A stretch of DNA of 64,000 nucleotides. It comes from Gelidibacter japonicus. GTDB lineage: Bacteria; Bacteroidota; Bacteroidia; Flavobacteriales; Flavobacteriaceae. The stretch covers positions 434,001-498,000 of the forward strand of contig NZ_BJKB01000001.1 of the NCBI RefSeq assembly GCF_010725055.1, in the 5' to 3' direction. Numbering within the stretch: position 1 is the stretch's first letter; each line of letters begins with the position of its first letter. The notes under the pieces were generated by a model, which was given only the letters and a program-made list of their open reading frames with translations, ran no database searches and was not told where the DNA came from. Shown here piece by piece: positions 32,808 through 53,922 of the stretch. Position numbers and translations under genes: made by a program.

Positions 32808-32812
32808 AATTC

Positions 32813-34733: not shown

Positions 34734-37403
34734 CTAATTTTTAATAATTTTTATAGTCTGGGAATTCTTGTTGTCATCAGCAATATTTAAAAAATACAAA
34801 CCGCTTGATAGGGAAGACAAATTCAATTCTGCAGAAGCACTATGACTTTGTTGACTCATTACCAGCTGCCCCAAACTATTGACCAGTTTTAAATTGAAAC
34901 GTCTTGATGATGGCGATTGAATAAATAACTTATCGGCAACGGGGTTGGGATACAATTTGACCATTTGATTTTCAAATTGTGTAACAGACAGGGTATAACT
35001 GACATTCACTCCAAATTCTGATGTATTCCCATTGGCATCGGTGGCCGTGGCTACAATGTTCTCATAATCAGCAGGATCATAACCACTTGGAAGCTCCATG
35101 GTTATGGTTTTAACGCCTGGAGCGGTATATGTATCTGAATCTATAAAAAACTTGCCTTGACCATTGGCTGCACCAAAAAACTCAATCCATAAAGGATAGG
35201 CTGAATTGGTCACGGAACTTGGAACGGCATAGGTGATTTCTATCTGATCTCCTCCCATATATGTAATCGTACTGATTTCTGGGGTGTTTTGAAGATTATT
35301 AGGTCCTGTGTCAGCATCGCCAATATCATTTTTAGTTGCCCCCACTAGATGAATTGCTAAAAATGAATTATCAAAAATGCTGTTCTCCAAAATGGATACT
35401 TGAGTTGGAATTCCTGAAGTAGGACTTAATTCTATGCCTGTTTGGTTATTTGCTATACGATTGTACTTGATGGAATTACCTGTGTTGGCACCTGTAATGA
35501 AGATGCCACTATAGCTATTTCCAATATTGGAAGTACCATCTAAACCTACTCCTATAGAATTGTACCCTACGCTATTGTTACTCGAGTTTTCAACCATTAA
35601 TATGCCATTGGTACCATGACTGCCTATGACATTTCCTTCGGCTGCAGTAGTGCCTCCAATCCTATTATTACTGGAGCTATTCAATGTCAGACCAACGCCC
35701 ACATTGACAACTCCCGTATTCCCGTCGGGCAATGTTCCTACTTTATTGCTATAGAAATGAACCTCCTCGGCCAAAACAAAACTCACGTTTATGGATCGGC
35801 CCACAATGGTTCCGTTACCTGAAATTGTATTGTGGGATACCTTGGTATCGGTTAATGTTCCGCCTAAGATTAAGCCTTCGTAACCATTGCTGATGACTCC
35901 TGTGCCCTGCGCATTTAATCCTATATAATTATTCTGAATATTGTGTCCGGTCCCGGAAACTGAAATTCCAAAATTGCTATTTCCAGAAATAATGTTTCGA
36001 TCGGATGGATCAGCACCTCCAACGATCGTGTTTGTCGAAGCAGCTCTAATGGATACTCCTATGGCATTAGGCACCGCATCATTACCCGCAGCGTTTAATC
36101 CTATATAATTTCCGATCACCAGGTTATTCTCACCACTAGTTAAAGAAATCCCGGTATCATTCCCCGAGATCACATTTCGAGAATTTACTGAAGTGCCACC
36201 AATGCTATTATTATTGGTTTGTCCTCCATTCATGATTATGCCCCTTCCGTTAGGCAGGGCGATAGTTCCGGTAACATCAACACCAATATAGTTTCCTTGA
36301 ACAGTATTGGAACTCACAGAATCTAAAGTGTCATCACCTTGAAAATAAACACCAAATAGTCCATTTCCGGAAATTAGGTTTCCTTCTCCCACTTGATCGG
36401 TTCCAATCTCATTATCATGGGCTCCAAACAGCACAAAAATTCCGCCTCTTACATTGGGAATGGATTTGGTTCCCGTAATATCCGTTCCAATATAGTTTCC
36501 GATAATTTTATTACCATAAGACTCCGGACCTGAAACTGCGATTCCAGTTCCTACCCTGTCATCAGTTTCAGAATAACTTCCAGAAATAATATTACGGGCT
36601 GCCTCTGTATTGCCACCCAGAATATTGTTGTGGGCATTTAAAAATTGAACATTATAAACGTTTCCTCTATTTAAAGTCCCGGTAATATCCGTACCGATCA
36701 AGTTACCTTGAACCCTATTATTTGTAGCGGCAGAATTTGTGGCGAGACCTTCAAAAGTAACTCCGGCCGCCCGGTTTCCTGAAATTAAATTCCCCTGATT
36801 TGGTTGGACTCCCCCAACAAGATTTCCGCCCGAATTTCTGAAATACATACCATCACCCGTGTTGGCATTAACGGTCGTCCCGTCTCCCCTCATCCCAATA
36901 TAATTGGCTTGAATAATATGATTCCCTGTATTTGCATATATCCCATAACCCCGACTAAATGGATAGTCCACTAAACGTTTAAAGCCACCAATACTTAATC
37001 CGTAAATTTCACTCCCCTCAGAATTCCCCACAAGCTGCAATCCATTTCTATCTGTTGGCAATGCATTGCCATCTATCTCGATGAGAGGTGCATTGGCATA
37101 ACCAGGTTGAGTACGCCCATCGACTATAATAGGCCTTGTGATAGATGGTAATATGTCATCCATAACCGCAATGACAAATGGTCCCGTTCCAGGAATATTG
37201 AAATGAATGACATCCTTCGTGCTGGTTTTATTTGCATTTTGAATGGCAGCTCGCAAAGTGCAGTTCCCGTTGACATCAGCACAAACCGCGTCGTTGATAT
37301 TGTTATCAGGTAGATTGTCAACACTGTTAACCGTATAGGTCGTTTGTGAAAATAGGGTAACTGTAAACGTTACGCTCAGCAAAAAAGGTAGTAGTTTTTT
37401 CAT
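34734..37403 (-). CDS. Exported parallel beta-helix protein with CSLREAI-type start and T9SS sorting domain
   Basis: An 889-residue surface protein. After the signal peptide (ending LFSQ) comes VNSVDNLPDNNINDAVCADVNGNCTLRAAI in several parts, the hallmark of a CSLREAI domain. Then come many right-handed beta-helix turns (NosD/parallel-helix type) with recurring NLISGN, NxIxGNYIGTD and TGT motifs from about residue 130 to 700, then a beta-sandwich. The C-terminus is a type A T9SS sorting domain (KLYPNPVADKLFIQS, SSLSSGLYFLNI, IKIIKN). It is likely an adhesin-like or glycan-binding surface protein. Confidence 0.87.
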   Translation of the reverse strand: MKKLLPFLLSVTFTVTLFSQTTYTVNSVDNLPDNNINDAVCADVNGNCTLRAAIQNANKTSTKDVIHFNIPGTGPFVIAVMDDILPSITRPIIVDGRTQPGYANAPLIEIDGNALPTDRNGLQLVGNSEGSEIYGLSIGGFKRLVDYPFSRGYGIYANTGNHIIQANYIGMRGDGTTVNANTGDGMYFRNSGGNLVGGVQPNQGNLISGNRAAGVTFEGLATNSAATNNRVQGNLIGTDITGTLNRGNVYNVQFLNAHNNILGGNTEAARNIISGSYSETDDRVGTGIAVSGPESYGNKIIGNYIGTDITGTKSIPNVRGGIFVLFGAHDNEIGTDQVGEGNLISGNGLFGVYFQGDDTLDSVSSNTVQGNYIGVDVTGTIALPNGRGIIMNGGQTNNNSIGGTSVNSRNVISGNDTGISLTSGENNLVIGNYIGLNAAGNDAVPNAIGVSIRAASTNTIVGGADPSDRNIISGNSNFGISVSGTGHNIQNNYIGLNAQGTGVISNGYEGLILGGTLTDTKVSHNTISGNGTIVGRSINVSFVLAEEVHFYSNKVGTLPDGNTGVVNVGVGLTLNSSSNNRIGGTTAAEGNVIGSHGTNGILMVENSSNNSVGYNSIGVGLDGTSNIGNSYSGIFITGANTGNSIKYNRIANNQTGIELSPTSGIPTQVSILENSIFDNSFLAIHLVGATKNDIGDADTGPNNLQNTPEISTITYMGGDQIEITYAVPSSVTNSAYPLWIEFFGAANGQGKFFIDSDTYTAPGVKTITMELPSGYDPADYENIVATATDANGNTSEFGVNVSYTLSVTQFENQMVKLYPNPVADKLFIQSPSSRRFNLKLVNSLGQLVMSQQSHSASAELNLSSLSSGLYFLNIADDNKNSQTIKIIKN

Positions 37404-37442: not shown

Positions 37443-38270
37443 CTACATGAATGTATAATCAGATTTATTGATCGATTTTTGAATTTCTTCAAGCCCTATG
37501 CATTCCATAGTGGCACTCTCTTTTTTCTTTTTGAGATTTTTCATGTCCATATGGATCATTAAAATTTTATCGTCTTCATTGAAATAATCCTTAAGCGCAT
37601 CGGGGATTTTTGTCTTGCTGTTTTTATAAATGTCATCAAAGCTTATCTCTGCATCCGTTATAAAATACATGGTCATCTCATAGTCCTCATTGACCGCTTT
37701 GACGCCTTTACAATCAAACCCGTTTATGGTCTGGTCAGGCAATGTTTCAAAAGTGAAATTTTCGGAAACTTCATTGGTTTCCTCTATGCCCAAATCATCT
37801 GGCATCTGATTGACCATGCCAATATTGCTACCTTCCGACGCCATAAATACGGCCATAATGTTTTGATCGGTATCCATGACCGTGAACATATTGTTCATCA
37901 TGGCAGAAGTGAATCCGAAATAAGCTACATCAGGTTTTAGATAATAATCAAATACGATCTCCCCTTCTTTAGTGGACATTTTTAGTGTATATTTCCAAGT
38001 AAAATCATAAGTATCGGCAACCAATGAAGGATCCGCCTTTTCTTTACTTCCTCCAAACGGATTGATATCAAATATTTGATCCATGGACCGGGTTGCTTTT
38101 TCAGCAGCCTTATCGGCCGTTTTTTCAATGACCGCATTCTCTACGCGCTGTTCCACCCGTTTTTTAAGTTTTTTTAGAAATTGTGCATTGACATCTGGCA
38201 CAAAAACCAGACAGCACAGTAATAATATCAAATAATGGGACGGCTTTGTTTTAACTTTTAATGGTTTCAT
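37443..38270 (-). CDS. Exported DUF4412-like protein
   Basis: A 275-residue exported protein. A long hydrophobic signal (about 12-30, ending DVNAQ) is followed by a basic/acidic helix (LKKLKKRVEQRVENAVIEKTADKAAEKA in several turns), then a domain with IVFDYYLKPDVAYFG, FETLPDQTINGFDCKGVKA and MTMYFITDAEISF, which matches the DUF4412 style of outer-membrane-associated proteins. Function unknown. Three bases separate it from the LPGD-repeat gene upstream and 39 from the beta-helix gene downstream. Confidence 0.72.
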   Translation of the reverse strand: MKPLKVKTKPSHYLILLLCCLVFVPDVNAQFLKKLKKRVEQRVENAVIEKTADKAAEKATRSMDQIFDINPFGGSKEKADPSLVADTYDFTWKYTLKMSTKEGEIVFDYYLKPDVAYFGFTSAMMNNMFTVMDTDQNIMAVFMASEGSNIGMVNQMPDDLGIEETNEVSENFTFETLPDQTINGFDCKGVKAVNEDYEMTMYFITDAEISFDDIYKNSKTKIPDALKDYFNEDDKILMIHMDMKNLKKKKESATMECIGLEEIQKSINKSDYTFM

Positions 38271-38273
38271 GAG

Positions 38274-38723
38274 TTATAGGGTATTAAAAATGATTTGTGA
38301 AGCATTCACTTCCTTAACTTTAACCTTTGATCTATCAAGTGAGAACATGTCGCCAGGCAAATACATATCTCCAGGCAAAAACATATCTCCGGGAAGAAAT
38401 AGATCTCCGGGAAGAAACAGATCACCTGGTAATTTCTTTTTATCGGTGTACATGGTAATGACCGCTCCTTTGTTAGGCCTGACCATATTATTCGCTATTT
38501 TATAACTGCCTTTTAACTCCCCAAAAAAGAATTTTTTATTTGGGTGTTTTTTTACCAGCATTTCTGCTCTTTCTTTTTCGAAAAGCTCTAAACTTTCAAT
38601 TTTGTTCGACTTTTCATGGACTACAAATACCACTTTGGTAGATTTCAACTGTCGCCTCTGTGAATAGGTTTGTTGTACAGCAAAACCCAATACAATTAGA
38701 CATACGATAATTTTAGATTTCAT
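38274..38723 (-). CDS. Exported protein with LPGD hexapeptide repeats, first gene of the surface operon
   Basis: A 149-residue exported protein. The signal peptide (KSKIIVCLIVLGFAVQQTYSQ) is followed by a domain of about 75 residues with VVFVVHEKSNKIESLELFEKE and KKFFFGELKGSYKI. Five tandem hexapeptides of the form LPGD(L/M)(F/Y) then occupy about residues 98-127, and a short tail ends SQIIFNTL. The repeat should form a stiff, regularly turning rod with an acidic residue in each unit. As the first gene after promoter P1 it is the likely lead product of the operon. I recognise no named family. Confidence 0.7.
   Translation of the reverse strand: MKSKIIVCLIVLGFAVQQTYSQRRQLKSTKVVFVVHEKSNKIESLELFEKERAEMLVKKHPNKKFFFGELKGSYKIANNMVRPNKGAVITMYTDKKKLPGDLFLPGDLFLPGDMFLPGDMYLPGDMFSLDRSKVKVKEVNASQIIFNTL
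38343..38432 (-). repeat. Five 18-base tandem repeats encoding LPGD(L/M)(F/Y)
   Basis: Ninety bases inside the first surface-operon gene consist of five in-frame 18-base units. Neighbouring units differ at a few positions, often silently (the Pro, Gly and Asp codons vary). That pattern suggests selection for the peptide repeat rather than a very recent slippage. Confidence 0.85.
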
Positions 38724-38750
38724 TTTGATTTGATTTAGAATGATTTATCT

Positions 38751-38779
38751 TTAGTGGTGAGAAAAAACCTATTGTTAAC
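38751..38779 (-). promoter_or_regulatory. P1: GTTAAC-N18-ACTAA motif, proposed ECF sigma promoter of the surface operon
   Basis: On the minus strand, GTTAAC (complement of 38774-38779) is followed 18 bases later by ACTAA (complement of 38751-38755), then AGATAAAT. The ATG of the first surface-operon gene lies 28 bases beyond ACTAA. The same two boxes with identical spacing occur at 44776-44804 and 49916-49944. The layout of a -35 and a -10 box fits an alternative (ECF) sigma promoter; the assignment to the sigma factors here is inferred. Confidence 0.6.
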
Positions 38780-38807
38780 ATTTTCTTAGTAAAATCTTCA
38801 AAATTAT

Positions 38808-39359
38808 ATGGAGCACAATTACGTGGATGCTTTAAAAGATAATAACGACAAGATTGTCAGAGAACTTTATGGGCGACATAGAGCTGAATTTTTTGGTTTT
38901 TCAAGAACATATCGCATCTCAGAAAATGATAGTGCTGACATTTATCAAGAGGCGTTTTTAGCCATGAGAAAACATGCCATCTCAGGGAAGCTAAATGAGG
39001 TCAACTGCAGTTTTAAAACCTATCTCTTTGGAATTGGAAAATATTTGATTTTTAATAAGCATAAAGCTGATGCTTCTATGAGTCACTACAATGGAAATCT
39101 CCATAATTCTGATTCAGATTACGAAAGTATCAGTGTTGACATCACTAATGAACTGACAGAACAGCAAAGGCTATTGAGGCATTATTTCAAACAATTAGGA
39201 AAAAGTTGCCAGCAAATGTTAACATTGAGCTTTTATAGAGGACTAACCAATGAGGAAATAGCAAAACAATACGGTTATGAAAGTGAAGCGGTAGTACGAA
39301 GTCAAAAATCGCGTTGCCTTAAAACACTGAAAAACCTGATCAAAACATCCCCAAGATGA
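38808..39359 (+). CDS. ECF-type RNA polymerase sigma factor (copy 1)
   Basis: A 183-residue sigma-70-family factor of ECF size. Region 2 includes DSADIYQEAFLAMRKHAISGK (about 44-64) and SFKTYLFGIGKYLIF. Region 4 is QQMLTLSFYRGLTNEEIAKQYGYESEAVVRSQKSRCLKTLKNLI, a helix-turn-helix. It closely resembles the sigma factor at 44861-45418, sharing for example DIYQEAF, RKHAI-GKL, KTYLFGIGK and VVRSQKSRCLK. The start lies 84 bases from the divergent surface operon. Its stop overlaps the start of the TPR protein gene by four bases, so the two are translationally coupled. Confidence 0.9.
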   Translation: MEHNYVDALKDNNDKIVRELYGRHRAEFFGFSRTYRISENDSADIYQEAFLAMRKHAISGKLNEVNCSFKTYLFGIGKYLIFNKHKADASMSHYNGNLHNSDSDYESISVDITNELTEQQRLLRHYFKQLGKSCQQMLTLSFYRGLTNEEIAKQYGYESEAVVRSQKSRCLKTLKNLIKTSPR

Positions 39360-40087
39360 CAATTAATGAAACACTAATAGAAAAAAAGTTTTCTAATGAC
39401 CTGACAGAAGCAGAGCTTCTGGAATTTAAAAAACTTTATGAAACTGATGATGCTTTTAAACAAGAGGTCGATTTTCTGAAAAATGTGCAACGGGTTTCTG
39501 AAACCGAAGATGATGCCCTTTTTAGAAATCAATTGGCAACTTATGAAACTGAGATTTCGCCAAAGAAGGTATTTCTTAACTCCAAGTGGATAAAACCTTT
39601 CTCAGCCATAGCTGCAATCTTCATCATCACTATAAGCATTAGTCTTTTCATGAACAAAGACATCAATAATGACAGCTTATTCAGTTCTTATTTTGAACCT
39701 TCGAAAAATGTGAGCGCTCCGATTGTACGTTCAGAAAAAGATGAACACCTTACAAACAGGGCGTTTATTGCCTATAGTGAAGCCGATTATCAACAGGCCA
39801 CCTCGCTTTTTCAAAAAGCTTTTGAACAAACGGGAAATTCGGAGTTATTGCTTTATGAAGGCAATGCTCTCTTGGCTATGGACAAAGTGACGGAAGCCAT
39901 TGAAGTTTTCAAGACCCACCTCACCTATTCTGACGCTTTGACCAACAGAACGCATTGGTATTTGGCATTGGCTTATGTAAAGTCCGACCAACTTGATAAA
40001 GCAAAACAAGAACTCACGATCTATATTGATTCTGAAGAAAAATTCAAAAAAACTGAGGCCAAATCACTTCTTAAAAAACTTAAATAA
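39356..40087 (+). CDS. Membrane-spanning TPR protein, anti-sigma-like topology (copy 1)
   Basis: A 243-residue protein. The N-terminal 75 residues (ETLIEKKFSNDLTEAELLEFKKLYETDDAFKQEV in part) look like the short cytosolic domain of Bacteroidota anti-sigma proteins, without a zinc site. One membrane helix lies at about 80-98. Immediately after it is the segment LFSSYFEPSKNVSAPIVR, conserved in copy 2, and then a periplasmic TPR domain of about three repeats. It is coupled to the sigma gene, as expected for its regulator. Its 3' end overlaps the convergent CHAT gene by 24 bases. Confidence 0.8.
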   Translation: MTINETLIEKKFSNDLTEAELLEFKKLYETDDAFKQEVDFLKNVQRVSETEDDALFRNQLATYETEISPKKVFLNSKWIKPFSAIAAIFIITISISLFMNKDINNDSLFSSYFEPSKNVSAPIVRSEKDEHLTNRAFIAYSEADYQQATSLFQKAFEQTGNSELLLYEGNALLAMDKVTEAIEVFKTHLTYSDALTNRTHWYLALAYVKSDQLDKAKQELTIYIDSEEKFKKTEAKSLLKKLK

Positions 40088-43000
40088 CCTTTTTCTGAAT
40101 AATCCCAAAGCAAGCATCGGTAAAACAGAAAGGTAAATCCAGTAATTTTGTTTTTCAACAAGTGCATCTGTATTGCCTGAAAGTACAAATCCCGACCAGT
40201 AATACGGATGTTTCAACAAATCGTCGTCGGTATGTTTCAAATAATCCAATTTAGCATTTTTAAGTGCTTCATCTTTGGTCTCGCCCAATTTTAAATGTTC
40301 GTAAAAATACATCATGATTTTTGCGGTGGCTTCATCATCTACTTTCCACAAACTGACCACCGTACTCGGAACACCTGCATAACTGAAGGCACGCGATAGG
40401 CTAATCACGCCTTCGCCATTTTCATAAAAACCGCTGCCCGTGTCGCAAGCGCTCAATACCGCCAAATCGGCATCTAAACTTTCATTATAAAGTTCCGAAA
40501 TAAACAATTGATTATTGGTCTCACCATAAAAGTTCAAGGACGAAAACTCTGGATGCGATTCATGTATATTGGAGTGCATGGCTAAATGCAGGATATTAAA
40601 ACCCTCAACACTTTCAAGAAACTCTTTTTTTGATGCATTGATATAACTCTTTCCATCAAATATTTTAAAAATAGCCATCACCTCATCTGACGCCTTTGGC
40701 AGTTTGCTTTTACTATTGGATGCAGAAAATGCACCGACCTGAATAGGTTCAAAATTTGAATTGGTGTTTTTTTGCTCTTGAAACAAAGACAACGAGGAGG
40801 CATAACTGACTGAAGGCATTTCATCATCCAACAGAAGCGATTCGAACGGAAAATAATTCAAGGCACCGTCTGGAATTATAATTAATCTATTATAGGATTT
40901 AAAGTCGATGGCATTGAACAATAAATCACGCATCGTATTAAATGACATCTCATAATCTGGTTTTCTTTGCTTTAAAATGTCCAAGCAGATTTTTAAGGTA
41001 TTTAGAGTCTTGGTTTTGTCCTGTGGCGACAATAACTCAATGCCCTTATTAGAAATCAAAAAGGTATGCAGGTGCTTATCTGTAAGAAGATACTTTAAAA
41101 TCAATTCATCGTTTTTCAAGGCGTTTTGCAACGGAGCAATTTCGAAATTTTTGACATTTAAATCATAATAGGTTTTATTCTCATGTTTAATGGAGTCCTG
41201 AATTTTGACCAAATCATTTTTCAGTTCGTAGATTTTTCTCTTCCACAGTGCTAGTTTTTCTTCAGAATTGCCATCAACCTTCAACACCGCCCTCTGATAA
41301 AAATTAAGTTCTGCTTTTATATCATCTTCAATAGTTATAAAATGTTCAGAAACAATAATATCCTGACGTTGATTGTTAAACATAAATTTTGACAGGGTCA
41401 ATTTGGAACCGTTATTTTCAATGGTGTTTATAATTTTGGACAATAATATAGGTTTTGATTCCTGCATCAGTCCCACTTCTACCAAACGTTCATTGATATC
41501 ATCAAAAATTGTAAACAGACGTTCATTATAGCGTTGACCCAAATACAATTGATTGAAAATTTTTGCTGCAAAAAAATAGCGATGGCTGGCCCTTGTCAGA
41601 TATTCCTTAGTGTTTTCTCTTTCATAAAGTTGAAGATAAAAATCGCCCATAGTCAAGAAGCCTTCAATGATTTCGAAAGAAACCAATGCTCCTGAACCTG
41701 AAGTTCCCACATATTCTACCTCATCATCGGAATCGTTCAAAAGAGTATAGGCATCGTCAAAATATGCTTTTGCTTTCTCATTATCATTTAATGCCCGTGC
41801 TGTTTCAGCGTTTAAAATGGCCAGTTCAAATTTGGAATTGATTTCGTTTATTTCATTTAAACCATTCAATTCTTCCAATAATAACTGAGCTTCAGATTGT
41901 TTTTGAACTTTTAACAACAATCTAATTTTGTACAACAAATATTCATGAGGCTTGGTATAGTACACATCTTGATATTGCTGTTGGATGTCAATGGCCCTAT
42001 CCATAACCCTCAGCGCTTCTTCAGGCTTCTCATCATCAAGAAAAGATGCATAAAACTTTAATGTAGAACTCAAAATGTTGGTTTCAAAACTGTGAAGTTT
42101 CTTATCAGAATCAATGGTCCTTAAAATATGGTCTATATACGAAAGGGATTTGGCGGTATCCTTTTTTCTGGAATAATGCAACATCAAATCATACCATTCG
42201 GACAATTGGCTCTTATAAACTTCCTCCTTGTTTCTGAAAAAGGAATTCGTTCCTCTATTTTTAGCCCGTGTTCTTAACTCATTTTTCTTTAAAATATAGG
42301 CTTCGGCTTTTTCAAAATCGCCATAATAGGAATACCAAAAGAACAAATTCCCATAGCATACATGTAGAAATTTTTCAAGGCTTTCATCGTTGAGATTTTC
42401 CCAAATACTCTGCGCTTTCAATAGCGACTCCAATTCCCTTTTTCTTAGGCCCAATTTCCTGTACTGAACGGAAATATTATTATAGGCAAGAGCAACATCG
42501 TGATTTTCTTCACCAATACTGTTCCTATATAAATCTAATGAGATCTGATAATTTTCAACTGATTTTGAATAATCTCCCAATTGTCCGTATATGTACCCAA
42601 TATCATAAATCAGATCCACAAAATTTTTGTCAGAGCTTGTTAGCGTATCCTTCAAAAACTCATAACCCAATTTTGCTTGCTCCAAAGCGTGTTTCCAATT
42701 GCCTAAATAAGCCGTTTGATGATAGACCCTACTCTGAATTTGATGTTGAAAAATTCGATCTGGACGCTCCATTCCATCTAATAGATCCTTGGCTTTCAAA
42801 GCCGATTGAAGCGCACTGTCCAAATATTGTTGCTGCACTTTTTGAGTGATTATCTTGTCTGGTCTGTAATAGTTGTAGCTATCAAATTCGTAGTCGCAGG
42901 ATTTGGCGTGATGGTACTTTGCGTTAAGGTAGGCTCTGTAATCCTTTGACGAATTATGATATTGTTTTAACGCTTGTTTTCTAACCGAAATGGCCTTTTT

Positions 43001-43126
43001 ATAAGAACCTTCCTTGGTTAGGGAATCCGCAAGAATGGTTAGGGCATCTTTGCGATAAATGCTTTGGGAATATCCAAAAGACAGCCAAAATATAGACAGG
43101 AAAACGAAAACAAGACATCTCATCAT
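40064..43126 (-). CDS. Exported TPR-CHAT protease (copy 1)
   Basis: A 1020-residue protein with a signal peptide (about 1-20, ending GYSQ), a long series of TPR-like helical pairs (about 22-560), a coiled section, and a C-terminal CHAT (caspase-like) protease domain. The catalytic dyad is visible: His851 in LHLAMHS and Cys894 in LSACDTGSG, followed by GEGVISLSRAFSYAGVPSTVVSLWKV. A membrane helix (about 995-1010) and a basic tail FRKRLFKFFKK end the protein. The protease should thus face the periplasm, tethered to the inner membrane. It converges with the sigma/TPR pair and is a likely partner of that pair. Confidence 0.88.
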   Translation of the reverse strand: MMRCLVFVFLSIFWLSFGYSQSIYRKDALTILADSLTKEGSYKKAISVRKQALKQYHNSSKDYRAYLNAKYHHAKSCDYEFDSYNYYRPDKIITQKVQQQYLDSALQSALKAKDLLDGMERPDRIFQHQIQSRVYHQTAYLGNWKHALEQAKLGYEFLKDTLTSSDKNFVDLIYDIGYIYGQLGDYSKSVENYQISLDLYRNSIGEENHDVALAYNNISVQYRKLGLRKRELESLLKAQSIWENLNDESLEKFLHVCYGNLFFWYSYYGDFEKAEAYILKKNELRTRAKNRGTNSFFRNKEEVYKSQLSEWYDLMLHYSRKKDTAKSLSYIDHILRTIDSDKKLHSFETNILSSTLKFYASFLDDEKPEEALRVMDRAIDIQQQYQDVYYTKPHEYLLYKIRLLLKVQKQSEAQLLLEELNGLNEINEINSKFELAILNAETARALNDNEKAKAYFDDAYTLLNDSDDEVEYVGTSGSGALVSFEIIEGFLTMGDFYLQLYERENTKEYLTRASHRYFFAAKIFNQLYLGQRYNERLFTIFDDINERLVEVGLMQESKPILLSKIINTIENNGSKLTLSKFMFNNQRQDIIVSEHFITIEDDIKAELNFYQRAVLKVDGNSEEKLALWKRKIYELKNDLVKIQDSIKHENKTYYDLNVKNFEIAPLQNALKNDELILKYLLTDKHLHTFLISNKGIELLSPQDKTKTLNTLKICLDILKQRKPDYEMSFNTMRDLLFNAIDFKSYNRLIIIPDGALNYFPFESLLLDDEMPSVSYASSLSLFQEQKNTNSNFEPIQVGAFSASNSKSKLPKASDEVMAIFKIFDGKSYINASKKEFLESVEGFNILHLAMHSNIHESHPEFSSLNFYGETNNQLFISELYNESLDADLAVLSACDTGSGFYENGEGVISLSRAFSYAGVPSTVVSLWKVDDEATAKIMMYFYEHLKLGETKDEALKNAKLDYLKHTDDDLLKHPYYWSGFVLSGNTDALVEKQNYWIYLSVLPMLALGLFRKRLFKFFKK

Positions 43127-43540
43127 AAGTCTGTTTAAACTTCTTAAATTTAAACAATTAACTCAATGAATTACAGATTTATCTTACTATTTTTCAAATT
43201 CAGTTTTCGTCAATTTTCTATAAAATCCCCAAATATGTGTCATTAAATGAAGTGTCGTATTCCAGTCCATAGCCAGAAATCCTTTCGATAGCTGAGCGAG
43301 AAAACACGATGGTTCCGGTAATCTGCACAATTTCTAAATACCCGCAAAATGCGCCAAGAAAGCCATTACTTTAGGATCAAAAACATGACGTATTTCAATA
43401 AAATTTATCGTTTTCTTATATAATTTCTTAAGGGATTTGATGGTTCGTCTAAGGTTCCAAATTCATTGTTCACAACTGTCCCTAAAGCATTATCTGATGT
43501 TAGAATTAGAGTACATCTTCCTGGCACCACATGACTGTTT
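43127..43540. other. Upstream region of CHAT copy 1; first part duplicated near 51 kb
   Basis: No gene. The first 110 bases, including TTTAAATTTAAAC and TTAACTCA, are matched by 51047-51158 upstream of the third CHAT relic, so this is the ancestral CHAT leader. The rest, to the propeller gene, holds nothing I recognise. Confidence 0.6.
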
Positions 43541-44565
43541 TTAATTTTTTGTGACGAAAACACCGTTTACGTTCGCATCATCGGTGCCATCTGTTAAATT
43601 GATTGGTACACCGTTTTTCCATATTCTTGCGTTCGATGGATAGGGTTCATTATTTTTATTTCCTCCCACATACACATCGTTTCCTAAAACAAAACTGGAA
43701 TTAATATATGAAAATTCGTTTTCATCACTTATTGAAGTTTCTGTCCCGTTTTTCCACATTTTTATAATTCTACTATCTTTTCTATATTCTTGACCAAATG
43801 CATAAACATCCTTGCCTGACACAAAAACGGAGGTTGCTACCACATCATTTGATCCGTTGGATAAATAAACAGGGACCCCATTTTTCCAAATCCGAGCTTT
43901 ATTTGCACCACTGTGATCATTGCCCGCAACATATACATCATTTCCAGAAACAAACACGGATGATGCATCTGAATTAACCGCATCGTTTAGAGTTAATTTC
44001 ACATTGTTCTTCCATAAAACAGCATATTCACTGTTGTTTATAATCTCATATCCCGCAACATACACATCGCCATTAGCCACAAACACCGAGATTGCTCCAG
44101 ACTGATTTGTACCATCCGTAAGGGAAGTTTTAATACCGTTTTTCCATAGTACGGCGTGATATTTATTGTTTCTTACTTCAATTCCTGCAACAAACACATC
44201 ATTGTTAACTACAAAAAGTGATTCTGCATAACTGCTATTAGTTCCTTGAGACAATACACTTTTTACACCATTTTTCCATAATATGGGAACAAGTGACGTT
44301 TCAGTTTCTTCAATAATTAATATATAAACATCTGTTCTAAAACATAAATGGCTTTAGCTTCAGCATTATATGTTCCATCGGTTAATGGAGTGGCTACCCC
44401 GTTTTTCCACATTTTAGCTGTACGATTTACGCCATTGTACTCATGTCCCACCGCATATACATGGGTTACTGCTTCAGGTATGTCTTGATTGTCATCCTCT
44501 TTACTGCACGAAGATGAGAAACAAATTAGTAGAAAAAATGTACTGAGTTTTAATATGGTTTTCAT
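43541..44565 (-). pseudogene. Seven-repeat propeller-like lipoprotein, broken by a frameshift
   Basis: Two adjoining minus-strand frames form one gene. The first (44317-44565) has a lipobox FSSSC and ends MFIY-stop; the second continues the pattern from about 44338. Seven repeats of about 40-45 residues each contain (K/R)xWKNGxxxxL and VFVxGNDVYVAG, consistent with a seven-bladed propeller. The break falls at a run of four A (44339-44342); one more base would restore VFRTDVYILIIEE in frame. It is either a recent inactivation or a sequencing error. Promoter motif P2 lies about 210 bases upstream and the second sigma gene is divergent. Confidence 0.75.
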
Positions 44566-44775
44566 TATCTATCGATTTTTAGTTTTAATATTTAAGTTTT
44601 CAAAGCGTATAGTGAACTTTCAATGTTTATATAGCATTATGGCCATGACATAACTTAATTTGTTGTTTAAATTTTTAATGACGAAACCACTATCGGTAGT
44701 GGTTTTCGACGCTAAAGTTAATCAGGCTTTGATTTTTTAGAAAAGTTCATAATGTTCTATTTTCTGCATTCACCT

Positions 44776-44804
44776 TTAGTAGGTTATAGAATTTAAAGGT
44801 TAAC
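44776..44804 (-). promoter_or_regulatory. P2: GTTAAC-N18-ACTAA motif upstream of the propeller gene
   Basis: On the minus strand GTTAAC (complement of 44799-44804) and ACTAA (complement of 44776-44780) are exactly 18 bases apart and followed by AGGTGAAT, matching P1 and P3. It reads toward the propeller gene at 44565, giving a leader of about 200 bases. It also lies in the divergent region 56 bases before the sigma gene start. Confidence 0.58.
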
Positions 44805-44860
44805 ATTAGTTTCTAAGTATTTTTATATTATTTATCTTAGGTTTCATTATTACATACTAA

Positions 44861-45418
44861 ATGGAAGAAAAACACATTAAATCTTTTATCCATGGAAAGC
44901 CTAAAGAGATCCAAGAACTCTACACGACCCATAAAGATGCTTTTTTGAACTTTGGAATGAAGTACGGCTTAGACTATGACGATCTTATTGACATCTACCA
45001 AGAAGCTTTTATTGCCTTAAGAAAACATGCCATCAATGGCAAATTAGCCAATGTAAAAAGCTCCTTAAAAACCTATCTATTTGGTATCGGAAAATTCATG
45101 ATTTATGATTTATTAAAAGAGAAAAAGAAAACCACGACGTTAAACACAGATACTGTATCAAAATATGCTCATATTGAACCAGTGGCTGTAGAATTCGAAA
45201 ACGAAGAACTTACCATAGAACAACAACTATTGAGAACCCATTTTAACAAATTAGGAAAAAAATGCAGAGAATTGTTAACCTTATTCTATTATAGAGGACT
45301 AACTATCGACGACATTGTTGAATTTACAGGTTATACAAACGGAAGTGTAGTCAGAAGTCAAAAGTCAAGATGTTTAAAAAGCTTGAAGGAAATGATTAAA
45401 TCCCAAAGTAATGAATAA
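44861..45418 (+). CDS. ECF-type RNA polymerase sigma factor (copy 2)
   Basis: A 185-residue ECF-size sigma factor. Region 2 holds DLIDIYQEAFIALRKHAINGKL and SLKTYLFGIGKFMIYDLL; region 4 holds CRELLTLFYYRGLTIDDIVEFTGYTNGSVVRSQKSRCLKSL. The similarity to copy 1 is strong in both DNA-contact regions, especially the recognition helix VVRSQKSRCLK, so both may read the same promoters. Its stop overlaps the following TPR gene start by eight bases. It is divergent from the propeller gene. Confidence 0.9.
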   Translation: MEEKHIKSFIHGKPKEIQELYTTHKDAFLNFGMKYGLDYDDLIDIYQEAFIALRKHAINGKLANVKSSLKTYLFGIGKFMIYDLLKEKKKTTTLNTDTVSKYAHIEPVAVEFENEELTIEQQLLRTHFNKLGKKCRELLTLFYYRGLTIDDIVEFTGYTNGSVVRSQKSRCLKSLKEMIKSQSNE

Positions 45419-46127
45419 AGACGAGTTAATAGAAAAGTATATTCAAAATAGGCTTTCGTCAGCCGAACAGCTCGAATTTGACACCTTGTTATCAAGTGAT
45501 GACGCCTTTAAAAAAGAGGTGGAATTTCATATTAATATAAAGAAAGTCGCTCAACACGAAGACGATATTGCATTTAGAGAATTAGTAACTGGTTTCGAAA
45601 CTAAAAAACCTCAAAAAAGAAGACTATTTAATACAAAATGGTTGGCCGCGGCAAGCATCGTTTTATTATTAGGTTTATCCTATTTTTTTAATGTTAACAA
45701 TACCGCCAATACTAATGAGCTCTTTAACAATTACTTCGAACCTTACAGAAACGTTATTGAGCCTATAGAGCGAGGAACAACAGAGCAAAATGAAAAAACA
45801 ATGGCTTTTACGGCTTATGAAAAAGGAAATTATGACGAGGCAGTAAGGTTATTTACAAATTTATATACTTCCACTAAAGAGCCTTATTACTTATTCTATA
45901 AAGCAAATGCATTATTAAAGTTAGACAGGGCCTATGAGGCCTTACCTTTATTAAAAGAACATCTTAAAACAAAAGACAGCTTAACCGATAAAACACCGTG
46001 GTATATGGCATTGGCTTATTTAAAACTCGAAGATAAAGCAAATGCAAAAAAGTTATTGCAACAAGTAATTACAGAGGAAAAATTCAATAGCAAAGAAGCA
46101 AAAAAATTATTAAAAGAGTTTGACTGA
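45411..46127 (+). CDS. Membrane-spanning TPR protein, anti-sigma-like topology (copy 2)
   Basis: A 238-residue counterpart of the protein at 39356. The cytosolic part (KDELIEKYIQNRLSSAEQLEFDTLLSSDDAFKKEVEFH in outline) is followed by a membrane helix at about 77-94, the shared segment LFNNYFEPYRNVIEPIER, and a periplasmic TPR domain ending KKLLQQVITEEKFNSKEAKKLL. The N-terminal heptads look able to bind the partner sigma. Translation is coupled to the sigma gene by overlap. A gap of 190 bases separates it from the convergent CHAT gene. Confidence 0.8.
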   Translation: MNKDELIEKYIQNRLSSAEQLEFDTLLSSDDAFKKEVEFHINIKKVAQHEDDIAFRELVTGFETKKPQKRRLFNTKWLAAASIVLLLGLSYFFNVNNTANTNELFNNYFEPYRNVIEPIERGTTEQNEKTMAFTAYEKGNYDEAVRLFTNLYTSTKEPYYLFYKANALLKLDRAYEALPLLKEHLKTKDSLTDKTPWYMALAYLKLEDKANAKKLLQQVITEEKFNSKEAKKLLKEFD

Positions 46128-46320
46128 TACCTTATGGAATTAAACACGACGTTAAAAAATTATATTGGCACAACCTGTAAGTCAGGACATGGGTTTAGCT
46201 TTTTTTGCCACTAATTCTCGAATGAAACTGGTTAGGGGAAATTTAATTATCACGAATAAAATCTATAGTTTTATCTAAAAAAATTAGTGTTGATCTTTTT
46301 TTACAGCCTACAATATATTA

Positions 46321-49212
46321 TTAATTAGTGGACCTACCTCCTCCGGCAAACGGGTCCGTGGCATCTTTTCTTTTGAGTAGTTTTTTAACCAATAATAAGA
46401 TTATAATTAGTCCGACAATTCCAACGATTGCCCATAATACATGATTGGTTGATGTTAGCGGTGATGTATTACCAGTAATAATTATACCCGACCAATAATA
46501 AGGATGCTGCAACAACACATCGTCAGCATTTACAGTCAAATACTTAATTTTAGCTTGTCTTAGCGCTTCTTTTTTATCGAGACCTTCACTTAAATTTTTA
46601 TAAAAATCATGCATAATATCTGAGGTGCTCTGATCACTGATTTTCCATAAGGTAGTCACAATAGACGGTACGCCGGCATAATTAAATGCCCTTGCCAAAC
46701 TCAACATACCTTCGCCTTTCTGAAGTTGTCCGAAGCCTGTTTCGCAAGCACTCAACGTGGCCATATCTGCATTAAACGTGTAATTATAGATGTCTTTAAC
46801 ATAAAGCAAGTTCGAATTGGAGCTGTCCTTTGAAAATGCCAGATAAGAATAGTCTGGGTATTCATCATTTGCTGAAGCATGTGTTGCGAAATGAAGTAAA
46901 TTATAGGAATGAACTTCATTTTCTAAATTAGAAATGGTGGCTTCATTGCTCTTAAAAACCTTCGAATTAAAATATTGGGCAATGTTTTCTGCTTCTATCG
47001 TATTATACAAGAGTGGCCCCATATCAGCTCTTTCTTGTTCAATATTTCGGTTGTCCTTAAACGTGGGAGCAAATACCAATAAACGATTGCTTTTTACCTT
47101 TTTGACGTCTTGTTGTTTTTGATATAGCGTGGCTGAATTGGCATAACTCACAGCATGTGTGTGAATTAAAAATGAGGCTTTATCACTGTTTGAAGTTTGT
47201 ACGGCATCAAATGGTATATAGTATAACACATCGTCTGGCAAAATTATCAAATCTGAAGCATGGGTTTTGAGCAAGCCCGGTTCTAAAATAGTTTTATAAA
47301 TAGTATAGCTATCCTCGTAAATTGAATTATCGCTAATATCAAGTTTAGAACTTTTTCTATATAGATTTTTTACGGACGTCTTAATTTCATCATTAAATAA
47401 AAGTTTTAAAAATCCTTTTTTCTGCCCATCTATCACTATTAAGAATAAATGCTTATCAGCGCTCAAATAGCTAAAAAGCGCCTGATTGTGCCCTAACTGC
47501 TGTTGCACCTCCTTAAGTGAAGATACATCAGGGTTATATTTCATAGCATAATAAGTAGCATAGTCCTTTTCTATTTTTCCAATATAATTGTAGTAATTGT
47601 TTTTTATAGTGCTTAATGAATCCGACAGTGATGGGATCTCATCGGGGGAAGCATTGAAAATCTGCTGTTCAAAGTACGAAATAGAGGCTCTGAATTCATG
47701 CCCTTTTACGAGAACTTCATCGGGCACGTTTCCGTATTTTGTTGCTTCAGCATTGCGATGTGCTTCTAACAGCGAAATGCTTTTGCTCTTTTCCATAAAG
47801 TGAAAAGCATCATCAATATAGATAGGATCCTTAGTTGTCTCATATAGTATATAAGCTACTGAAACGGCTGTTTGAAACGAGGGATAGGTCTCATTGATCA
47901 AAAACTGCTTGTCTAACTTGCTTTCAAATTCTGGTCGCAATACATCTAAGGTAACAATGATGGTTTTTGAAGTATTATGGGCCATTTTTAGATAGTTGAC
48001 CTCTTTTGCTTGGTCATGGGCGGTATTTAAGGCTTCTAATTTCTCTCTTAAAATTTTGATGAATGCAGTTTTGTAATCTACTTTCAAAGGATTGGGGTTG
48101 GATTCTAAATCTTTAGAATTAAACTCGTTGTCAAATTGCATCAAAGCCAATTGGTAATACTGTAAACCCTTGTTGATGTTACGCTGTGAGATATAGAGTT
48201 TGCCCAACCTGGCATAGGCGGCAGCAACGTCTTGGTGTTTTTTGTTATTGTGTTTTTTTAAGGCTTTATCAAGGCTATTGTTATAATAAGCGGATGCTTT
48301 TTCATAATTTTTCAGTCCTAAATAACTATCTCCATAAACCAGGTCGAATTCACTTGCATAGGGATTTTCTTCGTATTTATATCCCGTTACTTCGTCCAAT
48401 TTTTGCAGTGCCAAGTCATACCTACCCTGCTCGCTGTAGTTCTTGGCAATCAATAAAAACGACGATAAAATATTATTTTTAAATCGAGGATTATGTTGTT
48501 TCTTTTTATAAAAAGCCAACACTTCTTCTGAGAGACGATTGGCATCATTGAAGTTCTTGGTTGCAGTATACACTTGGGCAAGCAACTTCTTCGAATTATT
48601 GACATCCGACTCCCATTCTGCAATACTGTCTTTATATTTAGTTAAGTGTGCAATATCCCTTTTAAAAGAATAGGAGGCCAATTCGTACTTATTAGTATGG
48701 TGATAGATAAGTCCTAAAAAGCTATATAAACTTGACATCATTGCTAAATCCATAGCAGTACGTTGTTCCACGGGGATAGCATCTATCTTGTCATATAACT
48801 TTTGAAAATATGTTTTTGAATTTGCATATTGTTTGAGCTTGTAGTGATAATTCCCTCTATCAAATAGTAAATAGTCTTTATAGGTTTCTATCTCAGGAAA
48901 ATTAGCTATCCGTTTATCTTCTAAAATAAACCTTTCTTCACGTTCGATATTTTTTTTATAATTTTCTAAATCTAGATAATATCCATTTGCATTGATCAAG
49001 TAAAGAAAACCATTAAAAATGTAGGTTAAATCATTGCTTTTATCGGCCAGTCGAATTGTTTTTTCATAATAGAAATAAGCACTATCTTTATTTGTATAAT
49101 GATTTTTAACGGCTTTGTTAAATGCGTTTTCAATCTCTATTTCAGTGTTTTGGGAAGCGACTTTCTGAATAGAAAAAACGATTAAAATGAGGAATAAAAC
49201 ACTGTATTTCAT
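46321..49212 (-). CDS. Exported TPR-CHAT protease (copy 2)
   Basis: A 963-residue protein with a signal peptide (MKYSVLFLILIVFSIQKVASQ, about 1-20), TPR helices to about 480, a connecting region, and a CHAT domain. Catalytic residues are His778 in LHFATHAS and Cys823 in LSACETGFG, followed by GEGMLSLARAFNYAGVPSIVTTLWKI. A membrane helix (about 925-942) and a basic stretch KKLLKRK come before a glycine-rich end. Its organisation equals that of copy 1, but sequence outside the CHAT domain differs strongly. The start codon lies directly after a terminator hairpin. Confidence 0.88.
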   Translation of the reverse strand: MKYSVLFLILIVFSIQKVASQNTEIEIENAFNKAVKNHYTNKDSAYFYYEKTIRLADKSNDLTYIFNGFLYLINANGYYLDLENYKKNIEREERFILEDKRIANFPEIETYKDYLLFDRGNYHYKLKQYANSKTYFQKLYDKIDAIPVEQRTAMDLAMMSSLYSFLGLIYHHTNKYELASYSFKRDIAHLTKYKDSIAEWESDVNNSKKLLAQVYTATKNFNDANRLSEEVLAFYKKKQHNPRFKNNILSSFLLIAKNYSEQGRYDLALQKLDEVTGYKYEENPYASEFDLVYGDSYLGLKNYEKASAYYNNSLDKALKKHNNKKHQDVAAAYARLGKLYISQRNINKGLQYYQLALMQFDNEFNSKDLESNPNPLKVDYKTAFIKILREKLEALNTAHDQAKEVNYLKMAHNTSKTIIVTLDVLRPEFESKLDKQFLINETYPSFQTAVSVAYILYETTKDPIYIDDAFHFMEKSKSISLLEAHRNAEATKYGNVPDEVLVKGHEFRASISYFEQQIFNASPDEIPSLSDSLSTIKNNYYNYIGKIEKDYATYYAMKYNPDVSSLKEVQQQLGHNQALFSYLSADKHLFLIVIDGQKKGFLKLLFNDEIKTSVKNLYRKSSKLDISDNSIYEDSYTIYKTILEPGLLKTHASDLIILPDDVLYYIPFDAVQTSNSDKASFLIHTHAVSYANSATLYQKQQDVKKVKSNRLLVFAPTFKDNRNIEQERADMGPLLYNTIEAENIAQYFNSKVFKSNEATISNLENEVHSYNLLHFATHASANDEYPDYSYLAFSKDSSNSNLLYVKDIYNYTFNADMATLSACETGFGQLQKGEGMLSLARAFNYAGVPSIVTTLWKISDQSTSDIMHDFYKNLSEGLDKKEALRQAKIKYLTVNADDVLLQHPYYWSGIIITGNTSPLTSTNHVLWAIVGIVGLIIILLLVKKLLKRKDATDPFAGGGRSTN

Positions 49213-49241
49213 AAAAAAGCTCTCATGTAACAGAGAGCTTC
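49213..49241 (-). terminator. Terminator or attenuator touching the CHAT copy 2 start codon
   Basis: On the minus strand GAAGCTCTC pairs with GAGAGCTT across an eight-base loop and runs into TTTTTT, with the CHAT ATG the very next codon. It also lies 24 bases after the stop of the upstream lipoprotein gene, so transcripts from P3 meet it before the CHAT gene. Confidence 0.7.
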
Positions 49242-49265
49242 AATATACGTAAATTTAGTTTATTT

Positions 49266-49892
49266 TTATTTAGAAATGGATATCGGAATTTCTGATGTAA
49301 TCTTTCCTAATTTTCCGATGTTCGAACTGATTTGTAAATGGCCACTCCCTTCTAACCTGGTTTCAAATAGCACGACCATCTGACCTTCGTCATTTTTTAT
49401 TGTTTCGGTTTTTGTGTCCATGCTATTGTTTTTAAAATCTGCGATTTCCATGTGGAATTCCTTAAAACTATCTTCAAGGATTATTCCCGCAATATTTGAC
49501 AGATCTCTTTTTGGATCACAATTGGAAACATCCAGACAACCTTTAGGAGGAAACTTGATTGGCATGTCGGGTAATTTTAATAAAAACTCCATAAATCCAT
49601 TTAGCCTTCGTTCCTCCTTTTGAATCCTTTCTAACTTTTCGACCGCAGATTTGTCACCTTTTTCAATGGCAATTAAAATATCCTCTTTTTCTTTTTTCAA
49701 GGTATTGATTTTGCTAACAGTACTGAGATAGTGTATTTCGCGTTCATACAAATACTCATTTGCTTCTTGTGTGCTTCTATTCGATTTCAATTCGGATACC
49801 CCCATCTCAGGGACATCCATTTCATCTTGTGACGTACAAGTAAAAATCATGAATAGACTAAGTACTAACGGGATGACAGTTATGTTTTTCAT
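49266..49892 (-). CDS. Lipoprotein with coiled coil, upstream of CHAT copy 2
   Basis: A 208-residue exported protein with a signal peptide and lipobox-like MIFTC (Cys at about 19). A charged, coiled-coil-like helix covers about residues 45-95 (EREIHYLSTVSKINTLKKEKEDI and on). The C-terminal half has a CLDVSNC pair of cysteines that could form a disulfide, then a beta-rich end GHLQISSNIGKLGKITSEIPISI. No named family. Promoter motif P3 lies just upstream, and the CHAT gene follows after a terminator. Confidence 0.68.
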   Translation of the reverse strand: MKNITVIPLVLSLFMIFTCTSQDEMDVPEMGVSELKSNRSTQEANEYLYEREIHYLSTVSKINTLKKEKEDILIAIEKGDKSAVEKLERIQKEERRLNGFMEFLLKLPDMPIKFPPKGCLDVSNCDPKRDLSNIAGIILEDSFKEFHMEIADFKNNSMDTKTETIKNDEGQMVVLFETRLEGSGHLQISSNIGKLGKITSEIPISISK

Positions 49893-52755: not shown

Positions 52756-53922
52756 TTAATTCAACATAAATAAATCAGAAGCTATGCCATCACTCAAAAA
52801 CTTACCTTTTTTGGTGACTAGCAATTTGCCATCGTCAAGATACAATAATTGTTCAATAATATGTTTTTGGGATTGCTCCAGCAGATAGGTTTTGTATTTT
52901 TCTCCGAATTCCTGCTCTACTTTTTCCAAGGAAACACCCCAAATGGTTCGCAATCCTGTCATCACATATTCATTGTATTTATCAGTTGTAGAAAGGGTTT
53001 CTGTTTCTATGGGAAGTATATTCTTTTCTAAAGAATTGATGTATTTTGAATTATTTCTAACGTTCCAACTACGATGTTTCCCGTCAAAAGAATGTGCCGA
53101 AGGTCCAATGCCCAAATACGGTTTGCCTTGCCAATAGGCTGAATTGTTTCTGCTGAAATACTCTGGTTTTCCAAAATTGGAAAGTTCGTAATGTATAAAG
53201 CCAGCATCTCGCAATTTTTCAATCATGATGTGAAATTGCTCTTGCGCCAAATCATCATCCACATTTTTAATGATGCCTTTTTTAATAAAGTTAGCTAATG
53301 CGGTTTTGGGCTCCACGGTCAAGGCATAACTTGAAATATGGGGAATGTTGAATGCTAAGACGGTCTCGATATTTTGAATCCAGCGTTCGTTGCTCATACC
53401 GGGAATGCCGTAAATTAAGTCGATGGAAATATTATCGAAGTGTTTGGTGGCTTCTTCCAAACATTTTTTTGCTTCTTCTGAATTGTGTGCGCGATTCATC
53501 AGTTTTAAGTCTTCCTCAAAAAAGGATTGGATGCCGATGGAAAGGCGGTTGATACCGATGGTTTTGTAATCGTGGAAAATTGTTAGGGGACGCACTTCGG
53601 CTGGGTTCAATACGATCGAATCACTAATAAGATCATCGGGGTTGGCTTCAATCGTAATTTCTGGACTTTCAGAAACCTCATAATTTTTGTAAACTTCATC
53701 AATCAAAAATCTTAACTCATCAATCGACAATAAACTTGGGGTACCGCCACCAAAATAGATGGTTTCAACTATTCGGTTTTTGAATTCATCGTTTCGCAAC
53801 ACCAATTCTTTAGCCAAGGCATTGACCAATTCATCTTTTTTCTTTAAGGAGGTCGAAAAATGGAAGTCGCAGTAGTGACAGGCCTGTTTGCAAAATGGGA
53901 TGTGGATGTAGATGCCAGACAT
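52756..53922 (-). CDS. hemW: HemW-like radical SAM heme chaperone
   Basis: A 388-residue radical SAM protein of the HemW/HemN-like group. The cluster motif is HIPFCKQACHYCDFH (CxxxCxxC at about 11-18), preceded by GIYIHIPF. Other landmarks are VETIYFGGGTPSLL, ITIEANPDD, GINRLSIGIQSF, IDLIYGIPGM and HYELSNFGKP. HemW delivers heme rather than oxidising coproporphyrinogen; older databases call it oxygen-independent coproporphyrinogen oxidase. The length is normal. It shares its strand with ruvC but a repetitive 260-base stretch lies between them. Confidence 0.9.
   Translation of the reverse strand: MSGIYIHIPFCKQACHYCDFHFSTSLKKKDELVNALAKELVLRNDEFKNRIVETIYFGGGTPSLLSIDELRFLIDEVYKNYEVSESPEITIEANPDDLISDSIVLNPAEVRPLTIFHDYKTIGINRLSIGIQSFFEEDLKLMNRAHNSEEAKKCLEEATKHFDNISIDLIYGIPGMSNERWIQNIETVLAFNIPHISSYALTVEPKTALANFIKKGIIKNVDDDLAQEQFHIMIEKLRDAGFIHYELSNFGKPEYFSRNNSAYWQGKPYLGIGPSAHSFDGKHRSWNVRNNSKYINSLEKNILPIETETLSTTDKYNEYVMTGLRTIWGVSLEKVEQEFGEKYKTYLLEQSQKHIIEQLLYLDDGKLLVTKKGKFLSDGIASDLFMLN

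Follow-up and report, generated by a model that had tools for sequence, protein, structure and literature searches.

The stretch of DNA analyzed here, referred to below as the window, comprises 64,000 nt of contig NZ_BJKB01000001.1 from Gelidibacter japonicus and contains two neighboring gene modules, at about 37443-43126 and 43541-49892, in each of which an extracytoplasmic function (ECF) sigma factor, a membrane protein with TPR repeats and an exported TPR-CHAT protein are encoded together. In module 1, the sigma factor gene (38808-39359, + strand) overlaps by 4 bases the gene for the TPR protein (39356-40087, +), a putative anti-sigma factor with a predicted cytosolic N-terminus, one transmembrane helix (TM) and a periplasmic TPR domain, and the 3' end of this second gene overlaps by 24 bases that of the convergent gene for the predicted exported TPR-CHAT protease (40064-43126, -). 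Module 2 repeats the arrangement, with a sigma factor (44861-45418, +), a TPR protein of the same predicted topology (45411-46127, +; 8-base overlap with the sigma factor gene) and a TPR-CHAT protease (46321-49212, -); both proteases are predicted to end in a C-terminal TM. An earlier note made from the sequence alone had described two loci with this gene order, and the open reading frames (ORFs) fit the description, although the observation is larger than stated there, since the genome holds five such modules rather than two.

Both sigma factors score above the TIGR02937 cut-off of 42.9 bits (65.2 bits in module 1, 65.7 bits in module 2), and their matches to the ECF sub-domains of Pfam lie under the gathering scores. 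The CHAT domain PF12770 was recognized in the two proteases with 170 and 206 bits against a cut-off of 24 (E=9e-50 for module 1, E=2e-60 for module 2). The catalytic residues, H778 and C823 in the numbering of module 2, were invariant in an alignment of 40 CHAT rows, and H778 was kept in 77/77 pairs collected later, which had been picked by having C823. The His/Cys dyad that had been called intact is indeed so. To call the modules duplicated, however, gives a wrong impression. They are old paralogues that share 45% identity in the ECF proteins, 39% in the TPR proteins and 29% in the CHAT proteins, and both have nearer relatives elsewhere (module 1 in locus L122, module 2 in locus L046). Three further modules lie on contigs 9, 12 and 25 of the same 4.67-Mb genome, and all CHAT genes found in this genome (5/5) are within such modules.

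Hydropathy, the only means by which the topology of either protein was assessed, gave a consistent picture across linked loci. Signal-peptide-like N-termini were found in 147/151 full-length linked CHAT proteins and a C-terminal TM in 124/151, the tail behind this TM being net positive in 122/124, while a TM-like stretch elsewhere than at the ends was seen in 10/151. Exactly one TM was counted in 151/158 TPR proteins, with the more positive flank on the N-terminal side in 131/151. These counts bear out the proposal of an exported, anchored CHAT protein and a TPR protein with one membrane helix, and we infer from them that the periplasm is probably where the two proteins are exposed to each other.

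The neighborhood is conserved in related genomes, as the earlier note had required of its reading, and the module was found across the Bacteroidota. A CHAT query yielded 80 named loci, the best 80 of at least 568 confirmed matches, nearly all from Bacteroidota; an ECF sigma factor and a TPR anti-sigma factor were both present in the flanks of 38/80, many of the 80 being cut by contig ends, and the two genes were adjacent in 36. In 80 genomes of the family, including that of G. japonicus, we found 52 anti-sigma factors and 61 CHAT proteins at 100 bits or more. Of these anti-sigma factors 43/52 had a CHAT gene within 10 kb (38/47 when the G. japonicus genome is left out), and 44/61 CHAT genes had an anti-sigma factor at that distance; if genomes are taken to be 3.3 Mb in size, chance would place a CHAT gene within 10 kb of roughly 0.5% of anti-sigma genes. 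A sample of the phylum gave anti-sigma matches at E ≤1e-28 in 78/392 genomes. Of the 112 matches that the earlier loci did not include, 100 were inspected together with their flanking genes; an ECF sigma factor was adjacent to 94 and a CHAT gene lay within 10 kb of 79, a figure that may have been raised by a profile built from CHAT-linked loci. Module layouts vary, and include the convergent form seen in the window, same-strand operons, and divergent forms with genes between. Three CHAT matches in the family genomes (G013 C19:241764, G039 C12:50354 and G063 C42:198223) lie in frames of 1789-1863 aa with no anti-sigma factor within 10 kb; these represent a different CHAT architecture within the same family.

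ECF anti-sigma factors are usually single-TM proteins with a cytosolic N-terminus whose genes lie beside or overlap that of the sigma factor. The adjacent ECF gene in 94/100 cases, the gene overlap in both window modules and the predicted topology therefore argue against an alternative that we consider distinctly unlikely, in which the TPR protein is a scaffold or activator, rather than an anti-sigma factor, and CHAT cutting frees its cytosolic part as the signal. The N-terminus of the protein speaks for this alternative. Matches to anti-sigma models were found for module 2 only and were weak (NF047528, E=1.4e-4, and NF052375, both below cut-off), a phmmer search of the first 75 residues against the PDB returned nothing convincing (best E=0.37), and the 50 Foldseek matches listed for the TPR protein were largely TPR-type structures. 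A structural model of the module-2 TPR protein has a predicted local distance difference test (pLDDT) score of 89. We treat the TPR protein below as a putative anti-sigma factor.

The linker between the TM and the TPR domain of this protein is variable, except for one conserved residue. In alignments of 45, then 91 anti-sigma factors it was mostly Arg, otherwise Met, Lys or Gln, usually with Gly or Ser as the next residue, and its median distance from the end of the TM was 24 residues (5-95%: 17-30; n=157 proteins). A script reading of the 91 gave 64 R, 14 M, 10 K and 3 Q, counts that favor Arg, since the script takes Arg whenever one lies in an 11-residue stretch; for locus L007 an R taken from upstream was changed to M by hand on sight of the alignment, after a first covariation count. 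The corresponding residues in the window are candidate cut sites: after R125 in module 1 (APIVR/SEK, codon 39728-39730, + strand) and after R121 in module 2 (EPIER/GTT, codon 45771-45773, +).

The columns of the CHAT domain that change with this residue were sought by scanning all well-filled columns against the presence of Arg or non-Arg in the linker of the partner. In a first set of 81 pairs (80 CHAT proteins) the two best columns were D860, with the acid in 58/58 Arg pairs vs 5/23 non-Arg pairs, and E740, in 58/58 vs 6/23, and they remained best when a large Met clade was dropped. A second set of 76 new pairs, with a median identity of 34% to the nearest CHAT protein of the first set and none at 90% or above, returned the same two columns as best of 360 (E740 in 65/66 Arg vs 0/10, D860 in 66/66 vs 1/10), with the third-ranked column far behind. 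The pairing of Arg with the acids was obeyed by 69/70 second-set pairs that were less than 60% identical to the first set. Over all 157 pairs, both acids accompany an Arg linker in 123/124, and one or both are absent from 29/33 non-Arg pairs, namely all 20 Met, all 3 Gln and 6/10 Lys; the four non-Arg pairs that keep both acids are all Lys. Of 27 genomes with several loci listed, 13 carry both kinds of module, and in these the rule was met by 36/37 cognate vs 33/84 non-cognate pairs. The G. japonicus genome is one that mixes both kinds, with three Arg modules that have E/D, the two window modules among them, and two Met modules that have L/E. The recognition pocket of the protease thus changes in step with a linker residue just outside the inner membrane of the partner, which suggests that the CHAT protein may cut the TPR protein at this residue and so pass an outside signal to genes.

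The two acids probably fall within those parts of the fold from which related proteases build their S1 pocket. Clan CD proteases owe their S1 specificity to the alpha1/L1, L4 and L5 regions (PMC4357240), and in a model of separase the P1-Arg is held by an acid near alpha1 and an acid at the N-terminus of alpha4 (PMC4626109). In a structural model of the module-2 CHAT protein (pLDDT 89), E740 is inside a helix at 737-745 and D860 starts a helix at 860-875, just after the invariant Trp856. The agreement is one of region and not of exact column. An equivalence of D860 with separase D2151 was considered and dropped after the distances to the catalytic Cys were compared.

The earlier note had left two options for the CHAT protein, which would either cut the anti-sigma factor or be held inactive by it. 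The second remains the main rival: the linker of the anti-sigma factor would occupy the CHAT pocket as a pseudosubstrate and keep the protease inactive, as securin does separase, the real target being elsewhere and the protease being freed when the anti-sigma factor is removed. The covariation leaves room for this, as what it shows is pairing of linker and pocket rather than cutting. Separase, for which both states are described, indicates how they may be told apart. In the substrate state an Arg meets an acidic pocket, whereas securin places a hydrophobic residue there in place of the P1 Arg and the pocket Asp stays (PMC10317155). The modules do not follow the securin pattern, since Arg occurs with intact acids and no Met pair keeps both, as expected for substrates of a re-tuned enzyme rather than for inhibitors. 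Cutting is therefore favored over clamping, and we regard the pseudosubstrate reading as unlikely.

Several further points weigh against cleavage of the anti-sigma factor by the CHAT protein, in addition to the weak N-terminal matches and the leaning of the linker script. No CHAT gene lay within 10 kb of 21/100 anti-sigma factors of the phylum sample, and the same script read Arg in 16/21 of these, so that a linker Arg alone needs no neighboring CHAT gene. The linker of locus L218 is without a clear site although both pocket acids are kept. The Fisher values of the covariation scans treat pairs as independent, and switch events are few: on a CHAT tree of 156 rows, with columns E740 and D860 excluded, the linker class changes 10 times and the acid pair 9 times. 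Five independent pairs on supported branches gave a mean of 4.3 in agreement and none opposed, too small a number for a sign test to be significant at 0.05. When the scan was run in reverse, R121 ranked only fifth among the anti-sigma columns associated with D/E at position 860. Finally, the separase acid that contacts P1-Arg, D2070, is 41 residues after C2029, and D860 is 37 after the catalytic Cys.

Some of these points would be explained if the CHAT protein were a mere effector of the sigma regulon, with another site-1 protease making the cut and the covariation of linker and pocket coming from shared ancestry. The few independent switches and the Arg kept in anti-sigma factors with no CHAT gene in reach are consistent with this reading, as is the frequent location of CHAT genes in convergent orientation or some kilobases off. 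Against it, a tree-aware simulation of linker class on the CHAT tree reached the observed association in 0/4000 runs, the same two columns came first in the distant second set, and cognate pairs match far more often than non-cognate pairs in the mixed genomes. We judge the effector reading to be very unlikely. As a separate observation, the anti-sigma factors of loci L112 and L113 have no CHAT gene in reach and are also without the Met-Ser/Gly step found in their closest relatives, which would fit the loss of a partner, although 16/21 other unlinked anti-sigma factors keep Arg.

Taken together, the evidence favors the reading in which the CHAT protein is the site-1 protease of the ECF anti-sigma factor and the module a membrane-spanning signaling line, to which we assign a probability of roughly three in four. 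From the conservation of the gene set and of the linker residue, the topology, the intact dyad, and the coordinated change of this residue with two acids, we infer sigma binding, cleavage, a signal, an order of steps and a set of target genes, as follows. The cytosolic N-terminus of the TPR protein would act as the anti-sigma domain and hold the presumably co-expressed ECF sigma factor, one helix would span the inner membrane, and the short linker would join this helix to the periplasmic TPR domain. The TPR-CHAT protein, exported and anchored by its C-terminal helix, would be switched on by a signal in the envelope, which may reach it by way of its own TPR region or of a lipoprotein encoded by an adjacent gene. 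It would then cut the linker after the conserved Arg, or after the Met, Lys or Gln that takes its place in some lineages, some 24 residues away from the inner membrane. The remaining stump would pass to a general site-2 protease of the RseP type and to cytosolic proteases, and the freed sigma factor would transcribe the exported genes beside it. Two genes of the M50 family (PF02163) are present in the genome, a candidate site-2 protease among them, whose role in the modules is presumed.

The candidate target genes of the window are located upstream of the sigma factors, on the opposite strand. In module 1, a gene for an exported 149-aa protein with LPGD repeats (38274-38723, -), which has homologues in loci L122 and L114, is divergent from the ECF gene and is followed on the same strand by a gene for an exported DUF4412 protein (37443-38270, -); homologues of the latter occur somewhere in 6/41 other convergent module loci and in 1/116 other module loci. 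Module 2 conforms to the described divergent exported gene less well, as here that gene is broken into two frames: a start piece with a lipoprotein signal peptide (44317-44565, -) and a larger piece of the repeat protein (43541-44254, -) are parts of one lipoprotein in different frames, with the break near 44340, either a true frameshift of the organism or an artifact of assembly. Just upstream (~44620-44700) a remnant resembling a lipoprotein signal was noticed by eye, and is similar to the start of the gene in locus L152. At the right edge of the modules, directly 5' of the module-2 CHAT gene, is a gene for a 208-aa lipoprotein (49266-49892, -), a possible sensor or co-factor, with homologues in 10/41 other convergent module loci vs 1/116 other module loci.

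An ECF-like promoter sequence, GTTAAC-N18-ACTAAA, precedes the divergent exported genes in both window modules (38750-38779, -, and 44775-44804, -) and in four related loci; the GTTAAC form is present in loci L122, L152, L154 and L046. The window contains 3 matches vs 0.08 expected in shuffles, one of them inside another ORF, a count that is no independent test, as the sequence was read off the window and related loci. Genome-wide there were 7 exact matches vs 22 for a reversed-pattern control, which indicates that the sequence alone is unspecific and that place and conservation carry the weight. With a looser pattern, sites in 40 convergent modules were directed towards the upstream gene in 10 and towards the sigma factor gene in 6. 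Modules of the contig-25 type have a different sequence, GGTAACA-N14-18-GATA, before the divergent gene in 19/30 such loci, and a longer form of it gave 3 matches in the genome vs 0 in the control, 2 of the 3 within the contig-25 module. The claim that the modules switch on surface proteins is thus plausible for the two in the window but weaker as a general rule. The gene upstream of the sigma factor was divergent in 121/153 modules and both divergent and, by a crude test, exported in 57/153; exported genes made up 310/761 near modules vs 280/841 elsewhere.

Proteins with tails for the type IX secretion system (T9SS) were considered as cargo controlled by the modules, and this link was rejected, as T9SS-tailed ORFs were no commoner in linked (22/79) than in unlinked loci (8/21). 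Two T9SS-sorted proteins are encoded to the left of module 1 in the window (34734-37403 and 31422-32864, -). Other neighbors recur with the contig-25 module type, represented in the G. japonicus genome by locus L006 and found in related loci: a lipoprotein (a cluster in 24 loci), an exported PKD-domain protein with DUF7849 (28 loci) and a retropepsin-like aspartyl protease (19 loci), and L006 has a LuxR-type regulator in addition. A role as a defense system was also rejected. PADLOC matched none of the four main proteins of the modules, and among 14 window proteins, ten of them neighbors, it returned no CRISPR model (no dedicated cas gene search was made) and one weak match (PDC-M51A, 52756-53922), which we read as a radical-SAM-like protein.

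The system is best classed with the regulated proteolysis of anti-sigma factors, as a variant of it. In the RseA and RsiW pathways a membrane anti-sigma factor receives a first, periplasmic cut near the membrane from DegS or PrsW and is then cut by RseP. The modules would share with this type of regulated intramembrane proteolysis the membrane anti-sigma factor, a predicted first cut on the periplasmic side near the membrane, and a presumed RseP step; the DegS/RseA/RseP pathway is itself described in connection with type III-E CRISPR (PMC10028731). They differ in that the first cut would be made by a cysteine protease of the separase kind that serves a single anti-sigma factor, with several such pairs in parallel per cell. 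If this is true, many orphan CHAT proteases of the Bacteroidota gain a substrate and a role, and an enzyme of the caspase/separase type joins the site-1 proteases of anti-sigma factors. The predicted cut residue, the pocket residues and the non-cognate pairs make the claim directly testable.

Three other systems share parts of this design. CHAT genes occur in the neighborhoods of ECF group 54, for which proteolytic control has been proposed, although the proposal concerns sigma factors without an anti-sigma factor (PMC8999054), unlike the modules described here. In Myxococcus xanthus, DdvA is the cognate anti-sigma factor of the ECF sigma factor DdvS (PMC4374960). By the names of PDB entries 8rot and 8rw5, DdvA is a transmembrane anti-sigma factor with a CHAT domain, so that DdvS-DdvA shares an ECF sigma factor and a transmembrane partner with our modules, but joins anti-sigma factor and CHAT domain in one chain, whereas the window modules have two proteins, encoded by separate genes, with matching site and pocket. 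DdvA also qualifies the contrast drawn in the earlier note with cytosolic CHAT proteases, which holds for the window proteins insofar as hydropathy places them outside the cytoplasm. Our survey kept only anti-sigma factors under 400-450 aa, so fused forms of the DdvA type elsewhere would escape it. The third system is eukaryotic separase, whose human form (9hma) is matched by the CHAT model at E=3e-15 and with which the CHAT protein would share P1-Arg specificity through pocket acids; the modules differ in that signaling would be periplasmic and the second acid is closer to the catalytic Cys by four residues. Neither the split module nor a matched cut site was found described in the literature searched, a scope that excluded most subscription papers and preprints.

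A close likeness is to the type III-E Craspase (Csx29, Csx30 and CASP-sigma/RpoE), where genes for a TPR-CHAT protease, for an inhibitor of sigma and for an ECF sigma factor also stand together, and for which cutting of the inhibitor has been proposed to free the sigma factor (PMC10028731). Foldseek ranked Csx29 (8eey) first among the matches of the CHAT model (E=4e-18). In profile searches of the PDB with whole CHAT proteins, TPR matches drowned out the rest, so columns were compared in an alignment restricted to the CHAT domain, in which the Scalindua-type TPR-CHAT protein has Ser at the D860 column. Cuts in Csx30 are reported between residues 427 and 429 in Desulfonema (PMC10028731) and after L407 (PMC9729208). 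A relationship of the TPR protein to Csx30 was considered and rejected, as nothing named Csx30 was among the listed Foldseek matches and the N-terminal phmmer search was unconvincing. Craspase is cytosolic and RNA-guided, whereas the window CHAT proteins are predicted to be exported and membrane-anchored, and the inhibitor in the present modules, unlike Csx30, has a TM and TPRs. It is conceivable, although we would put it at somewhat less than an even chance, that the modules form a periplasmic multi-channel proteolytic code, in which parallel ECF pathways are insulated from one another by CHAT S1 pockets (E740/D860) each matched to the linker residue of its own anti-sigma factor, Arg or, with altered pockets, Met, Lys or Gln, with no cross-cutting, and of which Csx29, Csx30 and CASP-sigma would be a soluble, RNA-triggered offshoot. 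If cleavage of the anti-sigma factor by the CHAT protein is correct, these modules provide a membrane counterpart to the type III-E triad of TPR-CHAT protease, sigma inhibitor and sigma factor.

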